From assembly GCF_030273315.1 (NCBI RefSeq), contig NZ_CP127174.1, positions 1,612,001 to 1,676,000 of the forward strand: a stretch of DNA of 64,000 nt, written 5' to 3'. The translations under genes and the position numbers were made by a program. The notes below the pieces were generated by a model. That model had not been told where the DNA came from. It saw only the letters and a list, made by a program, of their open reading frames with translations, and did no database searches. Origin of the DNA: Natrialbaceae archaeon AArc-T1-2. Its GTDB lineage: Archaea > Halobacteriota > Halobacteria > Halobacteriales > Natrialbaceae. Positions 34,380 to 55,629 of this stretch are shown one piece after another (position 1 is the first letter of the stretch; every line of letters starts with the position of its first letter).

Positions 34380-34847
34380 TTACGCTCCAAGTCCGCCGTC
34401 CTCGTCATCTTCGTCCATCTCGTCGTCTTCGCCGTCACCGTCGCCCATCTCGCCGTCTTCATCGTCCATCTCGTCACCTTCATCGTCACCGAGGCCATCG
34501 TCTTCGTCGTCGCCGAGCCCGTCGTCTCCGTCATCCATCTCGTCGTCTTCGTCGTCGCCGAGATCGTCGTCTCCGTCATCCATCTCGTCGTCTTCGTCGT
34601 CGCCGAGACCGTCGTCTCCGTCATCCATCTCGCCGTCTTCGTCGTCGCCGAGACCGTCGTCTCCGTCATCCATCTCGTCGTCTTCGTCGTCCATCTCGTC
34701 GTCTTCACCGGGCTCTTCCTCACCACCGTCGTCGTCGCCGATCGGACCGTCGTCGTCGTTGTCCATACAACCCGCAATCGCTGCGATCGCACCGACGCCG
34801 AGCGCCTTCGTGAACCGACGTCTATCGAGGTTCGATGGGTCTGTCAT
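34380..34847 (-). CDS. Secreted acidic repeat lipoprotein
   Basis: The 155-residue protein has a Tat-type lipoprotein signal: LDRRRFTKALGVGAIAAIAGC, with the twin-arginine motif and lipobox AIAGC, so it should be exported folded and anchored by a lipid at the cysteine (about residue 27). The mature part consists almost only of Asp, Glu, Gly and Met, built from a 15-residue unit (MDDGDDGLGDDEDDE) encoded by 45-bp tandem repeats. It would be extremely negatively charged and disordered, perhaps binding cations or forming part of the cell-surface coat. Copy number probably varies between strains. Confidence 0.75.
   Translation of the reverse strand: MTDPSNLDRRRFTKALGVGAIAAIAGCMDNDDDGPIGDDDGGEEEPGEDDEMDDEDDEMDDGDDGLGDDEDGEMDDGDDGLGDDEDDEMDDGDDDLGDDEDDEMDDGDDGLGDDEDDGLGDDEGDEMDDEDGEMGDGDGEDDEMDEDDEDGGLGA
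34535..34715. repeat. 45-bp tandem repeats inside the acidic lipoprotein gene
   Basis: About four near-identical 45-base units lie in frame, each coding for the 15-residue unit. They differ at single bases such as GAGATC/GAGACC. The unit ends with CCGTCATCCATC, which makes the periodicity easy to see. This is a coding minisatellite, not a CRISPR array, because there are no spacers. Confidence 0.7.
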
Positions 34848-49216: not shown

Positions 49217-50404
49217 TTAGAGCTGTTCCCAGGCGTCGTCGTCGTCGGGATCGGGCAACTCCTCGTCGGGAACGTCGGTCTCGTCGAACGCGTCCGCGGC
49301 GTCGAACGACGCGATCGGATCCGGTTCGTCCGCTCGGTCGGTGTCACTCACTCGTTTCTGTCGGCCGATCTCCGGGTACGGCCAGGTGGTCTCCTCCCAG
49401 GATCCCTCCGCGCTGTAGTAGTACACCACGTCGCCATTGACGACGGCGTACAGCTCCCGGTTGTCGTCGTAGACGACGCGTTCGTTCGTGTCGATCGCGA
49501 CGTCGACGACGTCCTCGAGCGAGTCGAGTTCGAGCTGGTGGTCTCCGATCCACATCGGAATCGTTCCCTTCGAGATCCACTCCGCGTACCGCTGTCGGTG
49601 GAGGGCAAGCCGTGCCTCCTCGGCGTCGACGTTCGACCGGCTGTAGACGAACCCTGCAGCGCCGATCGAAAACACCGCAAGCATCGCGATCGCCCCGACC
49701 AGTGCGGTGTTGGGCTGCTCTTCGACCGTGATTTCGGCGGTCTCGGTGTGTGTCTCTTCTGTCGACGGCGACGCCGCGAGCCAGTAGGCGTCGTCGGTCA
49801 GAACCAGCTCCGTCGCCATCGTCGGCTCGTCCGGGCTTCGCTCGTACCAGGCGTCGTCGTCGCTTTCGACGTGGACGTAGAACTCGAGGGCGACCTCGAC
49901 CGTTCCCACGCCCGCGATCGCCTCCTCGAGTTCGTCACGGCGGTCGGCGAGCTCGGAGACGTTCACCGTCGTCTCCGCGGCCGCCGTCCCATCCTCGACG
50001 GTCGCCGTCGCCCGATCTTGAAACGCCGTTTCGGTGTAGAACACGTCGTCGTCGTGGACCGCCTCGTACCGCACCTCGGTGTCGTAGACGACGGTGGATC
50101 CGTCGTCCGGCACGCTCGTCGTCTGCTCGATGGTCAGCTCCGGGGTGGCGTTTACCATGTAAACGGCGTTGTCCTCGAGCGTCTCTGACTCGTTCCAGAG
50201 ATCTCCGCCGACGACGACTGCACTCGTGTGGACGTCGCTCGTGAACTCCTCCTCGCCGATCTCCTCGGTGACCGTCCGCTCCGACGGCGTCGCGACGACC
50301 CAGCCGGCTGCGACGGCCGCGACCAGTCCGAGGAGCACGAACGTGACGAGCAGGACGCGGCCGTTCCGTGCGATCACGAGGTCGAGGCGGGGACTGTTTA
50401 GCAT
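49217..50404 (-). CDS. DUF5305 membrane protein of the SipW-linked locus
   Basis: The 395-residue protein has an N-terminal membrane helix (about residues 16-39), an outside domain of about 195 residues with regular beta strands (TVTEEIGEEEFTSDVHTSAV, VYMVNATPELTIEQTT, VVYDTEVRYEAV), a second helix (about 234-254), and a long acidic cytoplasmic tail with LHRQRYAEWISKGTIP. This matches DUF5305, which in haloarchaea accompanies signal peptidases. It is downstream of the signal peptidase gene on the same strand. A role in assembling or anchoring the secreted DUF1102-type proteins is my inference. Confidence 0.82.
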   Translation of the reverse strand: MLNSPRLDLVIARNGRVLLVTFVLLGLVAAVAAGWVVATPSERTVTEEIGEEEFTSDVHTSAVVVGGDLWNESETLEDNAVYMVNATPELTIEQTTSVPDDGSTVVYDTEVRYEAVHDDDVFYTETAFQDRATATVEDGTAAAETTVNVSELADRRDELEEAIAGVGTVEVALEFYVHVESDDDAWYERSPDEPTMATELVLTDDAYWLAASPSTEETHTETAEITVEEQPNTALVGAIAMLAVFSIGAAGFVYSRSNVDAEEARLALHRQRYAEWISKGTIPMWIGDHQLELDSLEDVVDVAIDTNERVVYDDNRELYAVVNGDVVYYYSAEGSWEETTWPYPEIGRQKRVSDTDRADEPDPIASFDAADAFDETDVPDEELPDPDDDDAWEQL

Positions 50405-50558
50405 TGTCTCCTCCTGTCGTGACGGCTCGAGAGACGGTCTACGGCAGCGAAGCGTTTTACCTCTGCACCCCCCCGACCGCGGCCGCGCTCACCACTCACG
50501 TGTACGTGTTCCACTCTCTCTCCCTGTCGTATAACCGTAGTGTTTGTATCACTGATTC

Positions 50559-51728
50559 TCATCGCCACTTTCGAAGTTTTCGACGGAGCCGCGTCACAAC
50601 CGGGACGTGATCGCCTGCGGATCGAAGTCGGAGCTCGCCGGAACCGAACAGCACCAGCACGCCGCCGACGACGACCCCGACGACGACGCCGTTGACCGCG
50701 GCGATCGCGACCAGCGGGTGGATCCCGTGGAGGGCGGCGAGCACCGACGGCGGTGCGACGAGCAAGTAGCGGTGTTCGGCGACGTCTCGCGTGTACTCGC
50801 CCGGTTCGTCGGGCGCGTGCAGGGTGACAGCCGCCTCGGCGTCCCCGCGGCTCCCGACCGTCAGCCGCTCGGGTTCGACCTCGACGCCGGAACTCGCCGG
50901 CTCGAGGACGGTCACGACCGGCACCAGGCCGGCGTTGTCCACGGTGTGGATGAGCGTCCCCGTCTCGCCGGGTGCGAGCACCTGCGGATCGTCGGTCGGG
51001 TCGTCGGTGCTCACGACGCCGTATTCGACGACGCCCGAGGGAAGCACCATCGCCGCGGTCCCGAACGTGACGAAGACGACGAGAATTACCGCGAGAACGA
51101 CCCGCACCGCCAGGACGTTCTCGCGGCTCGTCGACCGCCTGGCCTCGCGTTTCGCGGGCCCGAACCGATCGAGCAACACCCCGAAGCCGAGCAACGCGAC
51201 GCCGAGTCCGACAAGCAGCGAGCCGAGCCCGTCGCGCTCGAGCGTCGTCGTCAGCCCGAGCGTCGAGGCGAGCGCATCGTAGCCGCCCTCGAGGACGCCG
51301 TGGACGCCCATGACGACCGTCCCCAGATGGGGGACCGTCACGACCTCGCCGTTTACCTGCAGGGCGACGGCGACGATCCGGCCGTCGGTCACGGGCGGCT
51401 CCCCGCCGTCCTGGTCGGTGAAGGGATTGGCGTCGCCGGCCGTGACGTATCCCTCGTCGGTCTCGTCGACGACCCGGTGGGTCGTCAGTCCCCCGTCGTG
51501 TAGCTCCCGGGCATCGAAGACGACCACGTCACCCTCCTCGACCTCGCCGGCGACGACGCTCGGGATCGCGACGAAGCCGTCGCCGGCCGCCATCGTCGGC
51601 TCCATGCTGCCCGTGGCGACGTAGCCGAGCAAGATTGGCTGGCCGAGCAACTGCCCGAGCACCAGCAGGAGGACGACGACGACCGCGAGGCTCCCCAGCG
51701 CCTGCTTGAGTACCGACCGCTCGCTCAT
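50559..51728 (-). CDS. SipW-type signal peptidase I with C-terminal extension
   Basis: The 389-residue protein is an S26B-type (archaeal/ER/SipW-like) signal peptidase. A first membrane helix (about 12-35) precedes the catalytic serine in GYVATGSMEPTM (S41), the catalytic histidine in LTTHRVVDE (H84) and the downstream GDAN motif. These enzymes use Ser-His and an Asp, not the bacterial lysine. After the usual domain, a second and third membrane segment (about 168-235), an outside domain of about 100 residues (EYGVVSTDDPTDDPQVL, LTVGSRGDAEAAVTLHA) and a fourth helix are added. It very likely cleaves the secreted proteins encoded nearby. Confidence 0.88.
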   Translation of the reverse strand: MSERSVLKQALGSLAVVVVLLLVLGQLLGQPILLGYVATGSMEPTMAAGDGFVAIPSVVAGEVEEGDVVVFDARELHDGGLTTHRVVDETDEGYVTAGDANPFTDQDGGEPPVTDGRIVAVALQVNGEVVTVPHLGTVVMGVHGVLEGGYDALASTLGLTTTLERDGLGSLLVGLGVALLGFGVLLDRFGPAKREARRSTSRENVLAVRVVLAVILVVFVTFGTAAMVLPSGVVEYGVVSTDDPTDDPQVLAPGETGTLIHTVDNAGLVPVVTVLEPASSGVEVEPERLTVGSRGDAEAAVTLHAPDEPGEYTRDVAEHRYLLVAPPSVLAALHGIHPLVAIAAVNGVVVGVVVGGVLVLFGSGELRLRSAGDHVPVVTRLRRKLRKWR

Positions 51729-51865
51729 GCTGGTGTCAGCATCTCGCGGCCGACTCGAGTCGGCCGGCGACGGCGCGACTCGTCCCGTCCACGCCCCCTC
51801 GTTTCATTTCCACGAACTATCAGTCGTATATTACAATCCAACACGTCTAAACGTTACGGCCGGAC

Positions 51866-53065
51866 TCACTCGCTTTTCGGGTCGGTCCAGGTCGGATCCC
51901 ATACCGCTCGGTGGCGTTTCGCAATCGGGGCCAGAAACAACAACCCGGCCGCAAGCGGCGGGGCGACGGCCGCCGCGGTCGACGTCGAGAGCTCGCGGTC
52001 GACGACGGTGATCTCCTCGTCGTCGCTCACCGTCACCGTTCCCGCCACCGTGCCGTCGACCGCGAGTTCGTACGTGCCCGGCTCCTCGAGGACCCACTCG
52101 AAGCTCACCGTCGTCTCCTCGTCGGGCTCGAGGGCGAGCGTCTGGGTGTCGACGACGGTCCCGCCGACCGCGAACTCGGCCGTCGCCTCGCCGGCCCGGT
52201 CGCCCTCGTTCTCGTAGGTCGCCTCCACGACGACGGGTTCGCCCGGCTCGAGTTCGGCTGCGTCGACCGCGGCGTCCGAGAGGACGAGAGCGGGTCCGTC
52301 CTCGGCCACGTCGACCGTCTCGGCCTTCCCGTCGACCTCGAGTCCAACGGCACCCGGCTCGTCGAGCGTCCGCTCGAACGTCACCGTCTCGACCTCACGC
52401 GGTGCGATCGTCACCGACTCGCGGTCGACGACGATCCCGTCGACGGTCAACTCCGCGACGACCGTCCCCGACTCCCCGCCCGCGTTTCGGTAGGTCGCCG
52501 TCACCTCGAGGTCGTCCCCGACGAGCGGATCGGTCGGCGTCACCTCGAGGTCGGTCGCCTCGATCGACGCGGCGGAGGCCCCGTCTCGGGTTCCGCCTCC
52601 GGCACCGTCGTCGCTCTCGGGCTCCTCGTCGTCCTCGGACAGGACGTGCACCGTGAACGTCTCCGTGCCCGCGTCCGCGACGTGTGTGTCGACCGCGACG
52701 CCGACCGTAACGGTGTCGCCGGGGGCGGGCTCGAGTCTCGAGTCGTTCGTCACCTCGCTGCCGTCGGCGTAGAAGGCCACCCCGTCGACGTCGTGGTCGA
52801 TCCAGATTTCCTCGAGGTCGTCTGCGTCCTCGCCGACGGTGATCGTAAACACGTCCGCGAACGTCGTCTCGGCGTCGTCGTTCAACGCCCCGAACGCGAG
52901 CTCGAGTTCGCCGTCCTCGAGGGTGACGTAGTCGTCGTCGACGGGCTCGAGGACGACCTCGTCGCTGGCCGGATCCTCACCCACCGTGATCGCCGCGGTC
53001 GGGACTGCGAGCGCGAGGAGAAAGCAGATTGTGGCGGCGGTGAGCAGGATTTTGGTAGACGGCAT
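51866..53065 (-). CDS. Secreted DUF1102-like protein with CARDB repeats
   Basis: The 399-residue protein has a signal peptide (residues 1-25), then a DUF1102-like beta domain (FGALNDDAETTFADVFTITV, EIWIDHDVDGVAFYADG), a Glu/Asp/Gly linker and two CARDB-type adhesion repeats (about 160-250 and 255-345) with TATYRNAGGESGTVVAELTV and EATYENEGDRAGEATAEFAV. It ends in a membrane helix (about 363-380) and a basic tail, so it is anchored on the outer face. It lies between the signal peptidase and a DUF1102 protein on the same strand. I infer a surface anchor or adhesin for the filament-like DUF1102 proteins. Confidence 0.82.
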   Translation of the reverse strand: MPSTKILLTAATICFLLALAVPTAAITVGEDPASDEVVLEPVDDDYVTLEDGELELAFGALNDDAETTFADVFTITVGEDADDLEEIWIDHDVDGVAFYADGSEVTNDSRLEPAPGDTVTVGVAVDTHVADAGTETFTVHVLSEDDEEPESDDGAGGGTRDGASAASIEATDLEVTPTDPLVGDDLEVTATYRNAGGESGTVVAELTVDGIVVDRESVTIAPREVETVTFERTLDEPGAVGLEVDGKAETVDVAEDGPALVLSDAAVDAAELEPGEPVVVEATYENEGDRAGEATAEFAVGGTVVDTQTLALEPDEETTVSFEWVLEEPGTYELAVDGTVAGTVTVSDDEEITVVDRELSTSTAAAVAPPLAAGLLFLAPIAKRHRAVWDPTWTDPKSE

Positions 53066-53138
53066 TTCCCCAACACGTATTTGGCAAGTTGGTCTGAGGG
53101 GATTGGGGCCGGATTTCGCTTATAACTTCGTTAGTGGA

Positions 53139-53681
53139 TTACTCAGTATTAGTATCAAATGCGTAGATTGTTAGCTCCTGATTATCTTCACCTGGATCCG
53201 TCGTGGTATCCACTTCAACATTCACATCGACGGAATCCCCGTCGGAGAGCTCGTAATAGTCACCGCCGTTGGTCTCTGCTAGTGTGAACGTAACCTCACC
53301 CACATCATTAAACTCAACAGTTGCGGATTCGGAATGATCATCGCCCTCACGGTCACCGAAGCTCACTTCAATATCTTCATCATCAGCAGCGTTGTTAGTC
53401 AGGGTCAGCACACCCTCGACATTCGTGATTGCATTGTCGTTGAATCCATCAGTGTGATCCGAACCCTCAAGACTGATCTCGACGGCGTCTTCTTCTGCAC
53501 CATCAGCCGCATAGTCACTATCCACGGATATTCCGAGGAAAGCATCCTCGTCACCAGCAGTATCAACACTCACCGTTCGATTGGCTTCCACACTACTAAA
53601 CGCGCCCGTCCCGAGCGCGGCTCCGCCACCGGCGACGATCGTTCCCAATCCGATCAGCACATTGCGTCGGTTCATTGTCAT
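53139..53681 (-). CDS. DUF1102-type secreted filament subunit candidate
   Basis: The 180-residue protein starts with a Tat-compatible export signal (MTMNRRNVLIGLGTIVAGGG), and the DUF1102/SipW-type motif GTGAFSSVEANRTVSVDT follows, with AFLGISVDS after it. The rest is acidic, rich in Asn, Thr and Val strands, with no cysteine. It resembles the proteins cleaved by SipW-like peptidases and, by fold prediction I cannot run, the TasA/AbpA pilin group. GC content is clearly lower than in neighbouring housekeeping genes. An alternative ATG two codons later is possible. Confidence 0.82.
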   Translation of the reverse strand: MTMNRRNVLIGLGTIVAGGGAALGTGAFSSVEANRTVSVDTAGDEDAFLGISVDSDYAADGAEEDAVEISLEGSDHTDGFNDNAITNVEGVLTLTNNAADDEDIEVSFGDREGDDHSESATVEFNDVGEVTFTLAETNGGDYYELSDGDSVDVNVEVDTTTDPGEDNQELTIYAFDTNTE

Positions 53682-54562
53682 GGGTATGGTCTCCGTTCGG
53701 TCGTGGCTGGCACCCATCTCCGCCGGGTGCCGCCCGACCGTCTACTCCTACGTAGTGGCTACACCCCCTTTGTATTGAGTCTCGAGACCGTCTACAGACC
53801 GAGTAATACTCGAACGCTGAACGAAGAAACCGGTTTCAAGACCGTCTTGAACGGCCGAAATCGGCCGTCTCGAGCAGTTCGTGATCCTATCGGTACCGTG
53901 TCACATACCCTCGAGTCACAGTCGATTCCCGCCACGGTCGGTCGTGAGCTCGAGCGCTGCCGTCGGCGTGACTTCCAGCGGTAGCCCCCGACGCTCGAAG
54001 CCGACGGCAGCGCCGTCGAACGGGGCGATAGTGCGACGGTAAGTACACACCACGCACGTGTCACCCGCGTGTACGTTCTCTGACGCCCGTGCCTTCGTCG
54101 CTGGAACTGCGTCGAAAGGTGGCAGGTCCCAACCCCATCGACGCTCGGCGACGGCTGTGGCTGTGGTTCGCCAGACTCCTCGTTCCGACCCCGGCCAGGA
54201 CGATCCCCGGACACCCCCACGAGTTGGTGGTCACCCGTTCGTCGTATAATTTGTGGCCGAAATGGGGACAGCGTTCAGATTACGCGCTTTCGGGAGCAGA
54301 TCGATTGGGATCGATCGGGCCAGGGGTTTTCGTGGTGGTCGTGTCGACGACACATAACTCGGAGTAGTATCCGAGATGGCCGAAATGGGAGCCGATACCA
54401 CTGTGGGGACAGCCCCTGGCGGTCGAAACCGCCTTCAATCCGGGCTTGAGGACCGCTGTGAGGCCTGTCGTCGGCACAGGCCGTGCCTGAATGATATGTG
54501 ATATCGACTGACAGTACAGAACACTTATTCATCGTCCGTTCGTCAGTTCTAGTTGGGATCCG
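53682..54562. other. 881-base non-coding region between divergent filament-locus genes
   Basis: No convincing protein frame exists here. The right half (54249-54540) has repeated words: GCCGAAATGGG occurs twice (about 54254 and 54380) and TGGGGACAGC twice. A stem GGCCTGT/ACAGGCC is at 54462-54482 with a 7-base loop. Just before the regulator, ACTTATTC (about 54521-54528) is a TATA-like box. I looked for RNase P and SRP RNA core motifs and did not find them. It may be a control region or contain a degraded gene. Confidence 0.5.
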
Positions 54563-55099
54563 ATGGGGACACAGGGTGAGACACGTCCGGGACGCGGGGA
54601 GATCTTCGACCTGCTGAGTAACCACCGTCGCCGGTACGCGATCCACTACTGCAAACGCGAGGACGAGCCCGTCGAACTCGGGGACCTGGCCGAACACGTC
54701 GCCGCCTGGGAACTGGACAAGGAGATCGAGGAGCTGACCTCGAGCGAGCGAAAGCGCGTCTACACGGCCTTGCAACAGCAACACCTGCCCACGCTCGAGC
54801 GTGCGAACATGATCGAGTTCGAGGATCACACCGTCGAACTCACCGACGGGGCCGAACAACTCGAGGTCTATCTCGACGTCGTCCCCGAGGAGTCGATTCC
54901 CTGGGGGCTGTACTACGTCGGCCTCTCGGTGCTGGCTGGTGTGGTGATGGGTGGGCTCTGGCTCGAGGTCATCCCGACGGGGACGATTCCGGAACTGGGC
55001 TGGGCAACGCTGTTGATCGCGCTGTTTGCGGGATCGGCGATCGTCCACGTGGTTCAGAATCGACGGATGCGGCTGGGCGAGATGGAGAAACCACCGTAA
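54563..55099 (+). CDS. Membrane-tethered winged-helix regulator (DUF7344-like)
   Basis: The 178-residue protein has an N-terminal winged-helix domain (GEIFDLLSNHRRRYAIHYC, LGDLAEHVAAWE, RKRVYTALQQQHLPTLERA) matching the haloarchaeal DUF7344 domain. A linker and two membrane helices follow (about residues 117-135 and 146-163), with a basic end. Such proteins are thought to sense at the membrane and regulate nearby genes. The next gene begins two bases after its stop, and the divergent DUF1102 gene is on the other side, so it is the natural candidate regulator of this locus. Confidence 0.85.
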   Translation: MGTQGETRPGRGEIFDLLSNHRRRYAIHYCKREDEPVELGDLAEHVAAWELDKEIEELTSSERKRVYTALQQQHLPTLERANMIEFEDHTVELTDGAEQLEVYLDVVPEESIPWGLYYVGLSVLAGVVMGGLWLEVIPTGTIPELGWATLLIALFAGSAIVHVVQNRRMRLGEMEKPP

Positions 55100-55101
55100 T
55101 C

Positions 55102-55629
55102 ATGACACGAATACTCACTGTCGTCGCGGTCGGGTTGATCGTTCTGGGAGCGGTGGCTATGGCCGGGCCGACGTTCGGGTTTAGTACGATTGCATCTGAT
55201 CGAGGAGTGCAGGTAAGCACTGCCGAAGGAGAAGACGCGTACCTCGGCATGGTCTCCACTGATAACGAGATCGACAACGAAGACGGAGTTGAAGTCGCTA
55301 CGCTGTATAATAATCTTTATTCGGATATGGACTCAGTTGAGGTTGAAGTTGATATTGAGAATGACGACGATGAACTAGAAACTATCGATCCTCCTTCCGA
55401 GATTGGTGCAGAAGATGACGATGCAGTTGAGGTAGCATGTGAAGAGGTTCATGGCAACGGAGGGGAAGGTGAAGCCACTATTACTGTTACTGTTGAAGCA
55501 GTCGCTAACGGGGTAACGATTACAGATGCCTCGCTTGAGGATGAGTTTGAGTACGACTGCCACCCAGGGGATGACCCTCCCGAAGATCCCCCAGGTCAAG
55601 GGGATGACACTCCCGGTAACGGTCCTTAA
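55102..55629 (+). CDS. Second DUF1102-type secreted protein, low GC
   Basis: The 175-residue protein has a hydrophobic signal (MTRILTVVAVGLIVLGAVAM), then FSTIASDRGVQVSTAEGEDA and AYLGM, which align with the DUF1102 gene at 53139 (12 identical of 24 positions). The mature part is acidic and strand-rich (EVEVDIENDDDELET, TITVTVEAVANGVTIT) with two cysteines (CEE, DC), and it ends in a proline/glycine/aspartate-rich tail. Codon use is strikingly AT-rich compared with flanking genes. It directly follows the regulator, giving a two-gene unit. It is probably a minor or alternative filament subunit. Confidence 0.8.
   Translation: MTRILTVVAVGLIVLGAVAMAGPTFGFSTIASDRGVQVSTAEGEDAYLGMVSTDNEIDNEDGVEVATLYNNLYSDMDSVEVEVDIENDDDELETIDPPSEIGAEDDDAVEVACEEVHGNGGEGEATITVTVEAVANGVTITDASLEDEFEYDCHPGDDPPEDPPGQGDDTPGNGP

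Follow-up and report, generated by a model that had tools for sequence, protein, structure and literature searches.

A probable single-pilin Tafi (Tat-fimbria) locus in a haloarchaeon of the family Natrialbaceae

Tafi pili (Tat-fimbriae) owe their name to the route of their export, twin-arginine translocation (Tat). They were described by Galeva et al. (2025; iScience 28:111793), as cited in PMC12687288, where the passage citing that work has the components of these thin appendages exported by Tat and names TafA as the core. A Tafi pilus from Natrinema sp. J7-2 has a structure in the PDB (9P0A); no paper for this entry was found in a literature search. Here, we analyze six genes at 49217–55629 of a 64,000-nucleotide stretch from Natrialbaceae archaeon AArc-T1-2 (contig NZ_CP127174.1, positions 1,612,001–1,676,000; this whole stretch is hereafter called the window), which in all likelihood encode a Tafi pilus. 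The original prediction, made from the letters of the window, had proposed a locus for export and assembly of TasA/AbpA-like filaments. Its grouping of the six genes into one unit holds, while the novelty of the system does not, as Tafi is an already known kind of fibre.

In the tafi locus of Haloarcula (NF052520–NF052523), TafA, TafC, TafE, and TafF all score above their cut-offs, and, as in the window, Tat pilins, TafC, and TafF cluster with a DUF7344 winged-helix protein, a SipW-type peptidase, and a DUF5305 protein. Haloarcula has separate TafA and TafE genes, whereas the window has a single pilin gene; its peptidase and DUF5305 genes are placed differently, its TafC carries a Laminin_G_3 domain, and the CARDB repeats at the TafF position are a feature of the window. 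The Bacillus TasA/TapA/SipW system shares with the window fibre subunits that have their own Ser-His signal peptidase and an aromatic residue directly after the presumed cleavage site, whereas Tat export, DUF5305, DUF7344, and an anchored TafF-like protein are added in the window. AbpA pili of Pyrobaculum calidifontis (7UEG) are donor-strand fibres, and Saf and other chaperone-usher pilins have an incomplete immunoglobulin (Ig)-like fold similar to that of the window pilin, although Pfam detects no chaperone or usher family among the six proteins.

The pilin (53139–53681, minus strand) matches the NCBIfam models of TafE (3.2e-21) and TafA (9e-16). In the PDB, 9P0A is its only phmmer match (1e-16) and the top hmmsearch match of its family profile (5.8e-21). 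The 9P0A sequence is in turn almost the same as that of a pilin of Natrinema gari (6e-84 over 142 residues compared), and the locus of the latter, ABCE-EMC6-TafC-HTH (helix-turn-helix) // pilin-CARDB-SipW-DUF5305-AMP ligase, has the same gene order as the window. Given these matches and the equal gene order, the pilin corresponds in both sequence and locus position to a type of protein that is known to build pili. The window pilin and that of Natrinema sp. J7-2, both from Natrialbaceae, have a near-identical Tat signal and post-signal motif and a similar predicted fold, whereas the mature sequences have diverged (22% identity in the Foldseek alignment) and the TafC-like protein of the window is a short form. 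An AlphaFold2 model of the pilin (predicted local distance difference test, pLDDT, 81) retrieves 9P0A at Foldseek rank 1 (E 2.8e-4), followed by SafA donor-strand pilins. AbpA, one of the two structures against which the original prediction proposed to search this protein, appears at rank 8 (E 6e-3, probability 0.93, template-modelling (TM) scores 0.37/0.32), a weak but specific match; by sequence, hmmsearch with the pilin profile finds no match to AbpA at E 1.

All six open reading frames of the locus are open at their predicted coordinates. The minus strand carries the genes for a DUF5305 membrane protein (49217–50404), a SipW/ER-type signal peptidase (50559–51728), a TafF-like CARDB protein (51866–53065), and the pilin. 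This set is divergent from a plus-strand pair, a DUF7344 winged-helix regulator (54563–55099) and a short TafC-like putative minor subunit (55102–55629), whose gene begins 3 bases past the winged-helix gene. Natrialbaceae, among them Natronorubrum, Natrinema, and Haloterrigena, contain the nearest orthologues of the pilin. Of 20 orthologous Natrialbaceae loci, 19 keep the order pilin-CARDB-SipW-DUF5305, and the remaining one is interrupted by a contig end; hence the clustering is not due to chance. In the intact loci the winged-helix gene is found on the other side, and EMC6-like and ABCE genes border the unit, as they do in the window. Among loci of named genomes, the order is intact in 27/60.

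The pilin starts with MTMNRRNVL, a Tat signal that the original prediction had overlooked. The signal peptide comprises residues 1–27 (MTMNRRNVLIGLGTIVAGGGAALGTGA; 53601–53681, minus strand, by alignment); within its twin-arginine signal, MTMNRRNVLIGLG, R5 is invariant and R6 nearly invariant among 27 orthologues. RR or RK is present in 165/172 members of the pilin family, and in several of the other seven the motif is mis-anchored. Most proteins of the two other secreted types lack RR (39/47 TafC-like and 45/53 CARDB proteins, as counted from sequence), and hence two export routes seem to serve the subunits of a single fibre. The pilin would be folded in the cytoplasm and then pass out through Tat, while the TafC-like subunit and the CARDB protein would be exported via general secretory (Sec)-type signals.

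The pilin has an N-terminal extension, AFSSVEANRTVSVDTA (53556–53603, minus strand), the presumed donor segment, in which 60 homologues show little or no variation at A, F, V, A, and R. The first 20 residues of the mature pilin are modelled with a mean pLDDT of 49–58, in keeping with a free donor segment. Cleavage around GTG-A-F-S by the dedicated Ser-His signal peptidase would liberate the segment AFSSVEANRTVSV, which would then enter the incomplete beta-sandwich of the next pilin as a donor strand, giving rise to a thin fibre.

The peptidase matches the archaeal signal peptidase I model TIGR02228 above its cut-off (7.4e-15). It was initially called a SipW-type enzyme, and the motifs noted for it are correct: Ser41 in GSMEP (codon at 51606–51608, minus strand) and His84 in TTHRVV (51477–51479, minus strand) form the Ser-His dyad and, like D99, are each 99% conserved among 101 homologues. 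The match to the SipW model itself (2.7e-7, 30.4 of 190 bits) falls under the Bacillus SipW equivalog cut-off. At 389 amino acids (relatives are near 390 residues), the protein has a C-terminal extension, residues ~168–389, in which four further hydrophobic segments enclose a domain of ~100 residues. Residues N265, G267, Y321, and H337-P338 of this extension are common to ~100 homologues; a PDB sequence search with the peptidase returned no matches. Bacillus TasA, a substrate of the Ser-His peptidase SipW, has Phe at position P2′ of the cleavage site (PMC10269814). In the pilin, Gly-Ala-Phe occupies residues 26–28 in 27/27 orthologues with F28 invariant, and TafC-like proteins mostly have Gly-Phe at the equivalent place; cutting before Ala or Gly would thus put Phe at P2′ in both.

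The TafC-like protein matches the NCBIfam TafC model (8.8e-13) and has a Sec-type signal, the motif GFS..ASDRGV..AYLG, and conserved cysteines. The post-signal motif that all secreted proteins of the locus were said to share is common to the pilin (AFSSVEANRTVSVDTAGDEDAFLGI) and this protein (FSTIASDRGVQVSTAEGEDAYLGM), with a profile-profile probability of 96% over 29 columns, but does not extend to the CARDB protein; the likeness of the TafC-like protein to the pilin at the profile level is restricted to the first 29 mature residues. In place of a C-terminal binding domain it has a Gly/Pro/Asp-rich tail. A broken gene is disfavoured, as the closest homologue (L125 in our locus numbering) has a similarly short tail. 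The C-termini of TafC-like proteins vary by species: Laminin_G_3 is found in Haloarcula (L087:11543–12682), and a bactofilin-like beta-helix in Natrinema mahii and Natronoglomus (L112:5972–7078, L119:4867–6516). As these domains differ between species, the TafC-like protein is probably a minor subunit located at the fibre tip, with an exchangeable C-terminal domain.

The CARDB protein comprises a Sec-type signal peptide, a pilin-like N-terminal domain (52625–52990, minus strand, by profile alignment), CARDB repeats (two stretches; Pfam 1.5e-15), and a C-terminal transmembrane anchor (residues 364–382; 51920–51976, minus strand, by transmembrane scan). The CARDB assignment made earlier thus stands, while the DUF1102 labels given to the start of this protein, to the pilin, and to the TafC-like protein do not: PF06510 matches none of the window proteins even at E 1, nor anything in the host genome, although the N-terminal domain of a TafF/CARDB relative in Halorubrum is matched (2.9e-6). 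Alignment of the N-terminal domain of the CARDB protein to the pilin profile (hhalign 98.2%, E 3e-14) is confined to pilin columns 17–156; the pilin-type N-terminal extension, with its donor motif, is absent or shortened, and a C-terminal hydrophobic segment is present in 47/47 homologues. The idea that this protein is a novelty of Natrialbaceae was dropped, as it occupies the position of TafF (NF052523) in Haloarcula and relatives of Haloarcula TafF match the profile of its N-terminal domain.

A pilin-homologous domain lacking a donor segment, combined with a membrane anchor, suggests that the CARDB protein may be a cell-anchored, acceptor-only base that fixes fibre polarity. It would most likely accept the first donor strand and tether the fibre to the cell, toward which the donor tails would point. 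We extend this tentatively, at somewhat below even chances, to a scheme in which this anchored acceptor-only pilin sets base and polarity without an usher and in which the peptidase, which has an additional domain outside the cell, forms a joint assembly site with DUF5305 and the membrane-tethered Ig-like domain of the latter. The strongest competitor, which we consider rather unlikely, is that the CARDB protein is a tip, a chaperone, or a cell-wall adaptor and that the polarity is opposite, with the TafC-like or another subunit at the cell. In favour of such an arrangement, a cap with a donor strand but without an acceptor was proposed for the Sulfolobus threads (PMC9715654), TapA initiates TasA fibres by strand donation (PMC10151520), and TafC keeps the donor-like motif. 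On the other hand, the conserved anchor of the CARDB protein and its lack of a donor motif suit a cell-bound acceptor, and the swappable lectin-like and bactofilin-like terminal domains of TafC suit a tip.

The DUF5305 protein, a membrane protein as first proposed (PF17231, 2.7e-49), has an N-terminal transmembrane segment and another at residue 235. Its AlphaFold2 model (pLDDT 91, predicted TM-score 0.58) comprises a transmembrane helix, a long-stranded extracellular beta-sandwich, a second transmembrane helix, and a conserved cytosolic alpha/beta domain. The protein could be an obligatory partner in the membrane that serves, perhaps, as a platform for assembly or as a regulator, yet an assembly role for either DUF5305 or the peptidase extension is a guess. 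The product of 54563–55099 is, as predicted, a membrane-tethered winged-helix protein: its DUF7344 domain (1.1e-27) is followed by two C-terminal transmembrane segments, and it probably controls expression.

The Tafi module is widespread in haloarchaea. Genes of the TafE type are found in 157/243 haloarchaeal genomes and DUF5305 in 168/243; both are present in 153 genomes, TafE alone in 4, DUF5305 alone in 15, and neither in 71.

Several observations weigh against the identification of the locus as encoding a Tafi pilus, or against parts of it. All matches of window proteins to Tafi families stay under the cut-offs of the curated equivalog models. Over the whole model, TM-scores are modest (0.49 to 9P0A), and the fold search with DUF5305 gave generic Ig-like domains alone, at low TM-scores. 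The Fisher test for co-occurrence of TafE and DUF5305 (6e-41) ignores phylogeny, and donor-strand exchange is extrapolated from relatives. As for the cut-offs, the relative of the solved Tafi pilin in Natrinema gari likewise stays under those of TafE and TafA (77 and 53 bits), and hence such scores still count as membership. The outline of exported, cleaved, and polymerizing fibre proteins is upheld by homology to Tafi and 9P0A, albeit not through kinship to TasA: the pilins are very probably secreted, peptidase-processed beta-sandwich proteins that polymerize.

The content of G and C at third codon positions (GC3) is 0.49 in the pilin gene and 0.45 in the TafC-like gene, against 0.80–0.90 in the other genes of the locus. 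Due to this codon use, our homemade gene finder skipped both 53139–53681 and 55102–55629. In relatives, GC3 of the pilin is under that of the peptidase in 58/71 loci, and that of TafC in 33/33; this may be due to recurrent horizontal replacement or to a difference in codon selection. Atypical codon use, a single pilin gene in the genome with scores under the cut-offs, and the lack of a separate TafA might suggest that the products are monomeric or S-layer-associated surface proteins, that the strain makes no fibre, and that the pilin gene is a remnant. We regard this as very improbable: the frames and the locus are intact, the motifs are conserved, low GC3 is general among these pilins, and the Natrinema relative, equally under the cut-offs, belongs to a type that forms a pilus.

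The least probable reading, a strict TasA-type biofilm fibre in which camelysin/TasA homologues are exported via Sec and processed by SipW in the manner of tapA-sipW-tasA, could draw on the SipW-like Ser-His peptidase, on the Phe that directly follows the presumed cleavage site both in TasA (PMC10269814) and here, and on the fold match to AbpA, a TasA-related fibre (PMC9674648), but strict TasA membership is rejected, as no window protein matches TasA or camelysin families of Pfam and NCBIfam at E 1, TasA is outside the 50 best fold matches of the pilin model, the pilin signal is Tat rather than Sec, and Tafi families match far better. It is fair to say that the Tafi-type pilin of the window works like TasA or AbpA, but not that it is a TasA.

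The host genome (3.36 Mb, 3 contigs) contains a single gene of the TafE/TafA type, a single TafC match of full strength (the TafC-like gene of the locus, under the cut-off), one DUF5305 gene, and two signal peptidases, the second of which is encoded away from the locus, at C1:1430921. The two divergent halves of the locus are separated by an 881-base gap (53682–54562) without a convincing gene, where several relatives have an extra TafC-like gene. A sigma-70 promoter scan found nothing, as expected for an archaeal host. Elsewhere in the window, 34380–34847 encodes a small protein whose start resembles a Tat lipobox (LDRRRFTKALGVGAIAAIAGC) and which continues into a highly acidic tract of low complexity. 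The pilin profile also matches 23 non-haloarchaeal genomes with E down to 5e-15, 22 of our family f21 and one of f41; these genomes (including G348, G383, G496, and G500 of our set) are small, archaeal, and from the same phylum.

A complete Tafi locus with a single pilin gene is thus present in a Natrialbaceae genome other than those of the studied strains. For the archaeal threads of Sulfolobus, the polarity of donor-strand fibres and the way they are anchored are stated to be unknown (PMC9715654), and the TafF-like protein makes this question directly testable.

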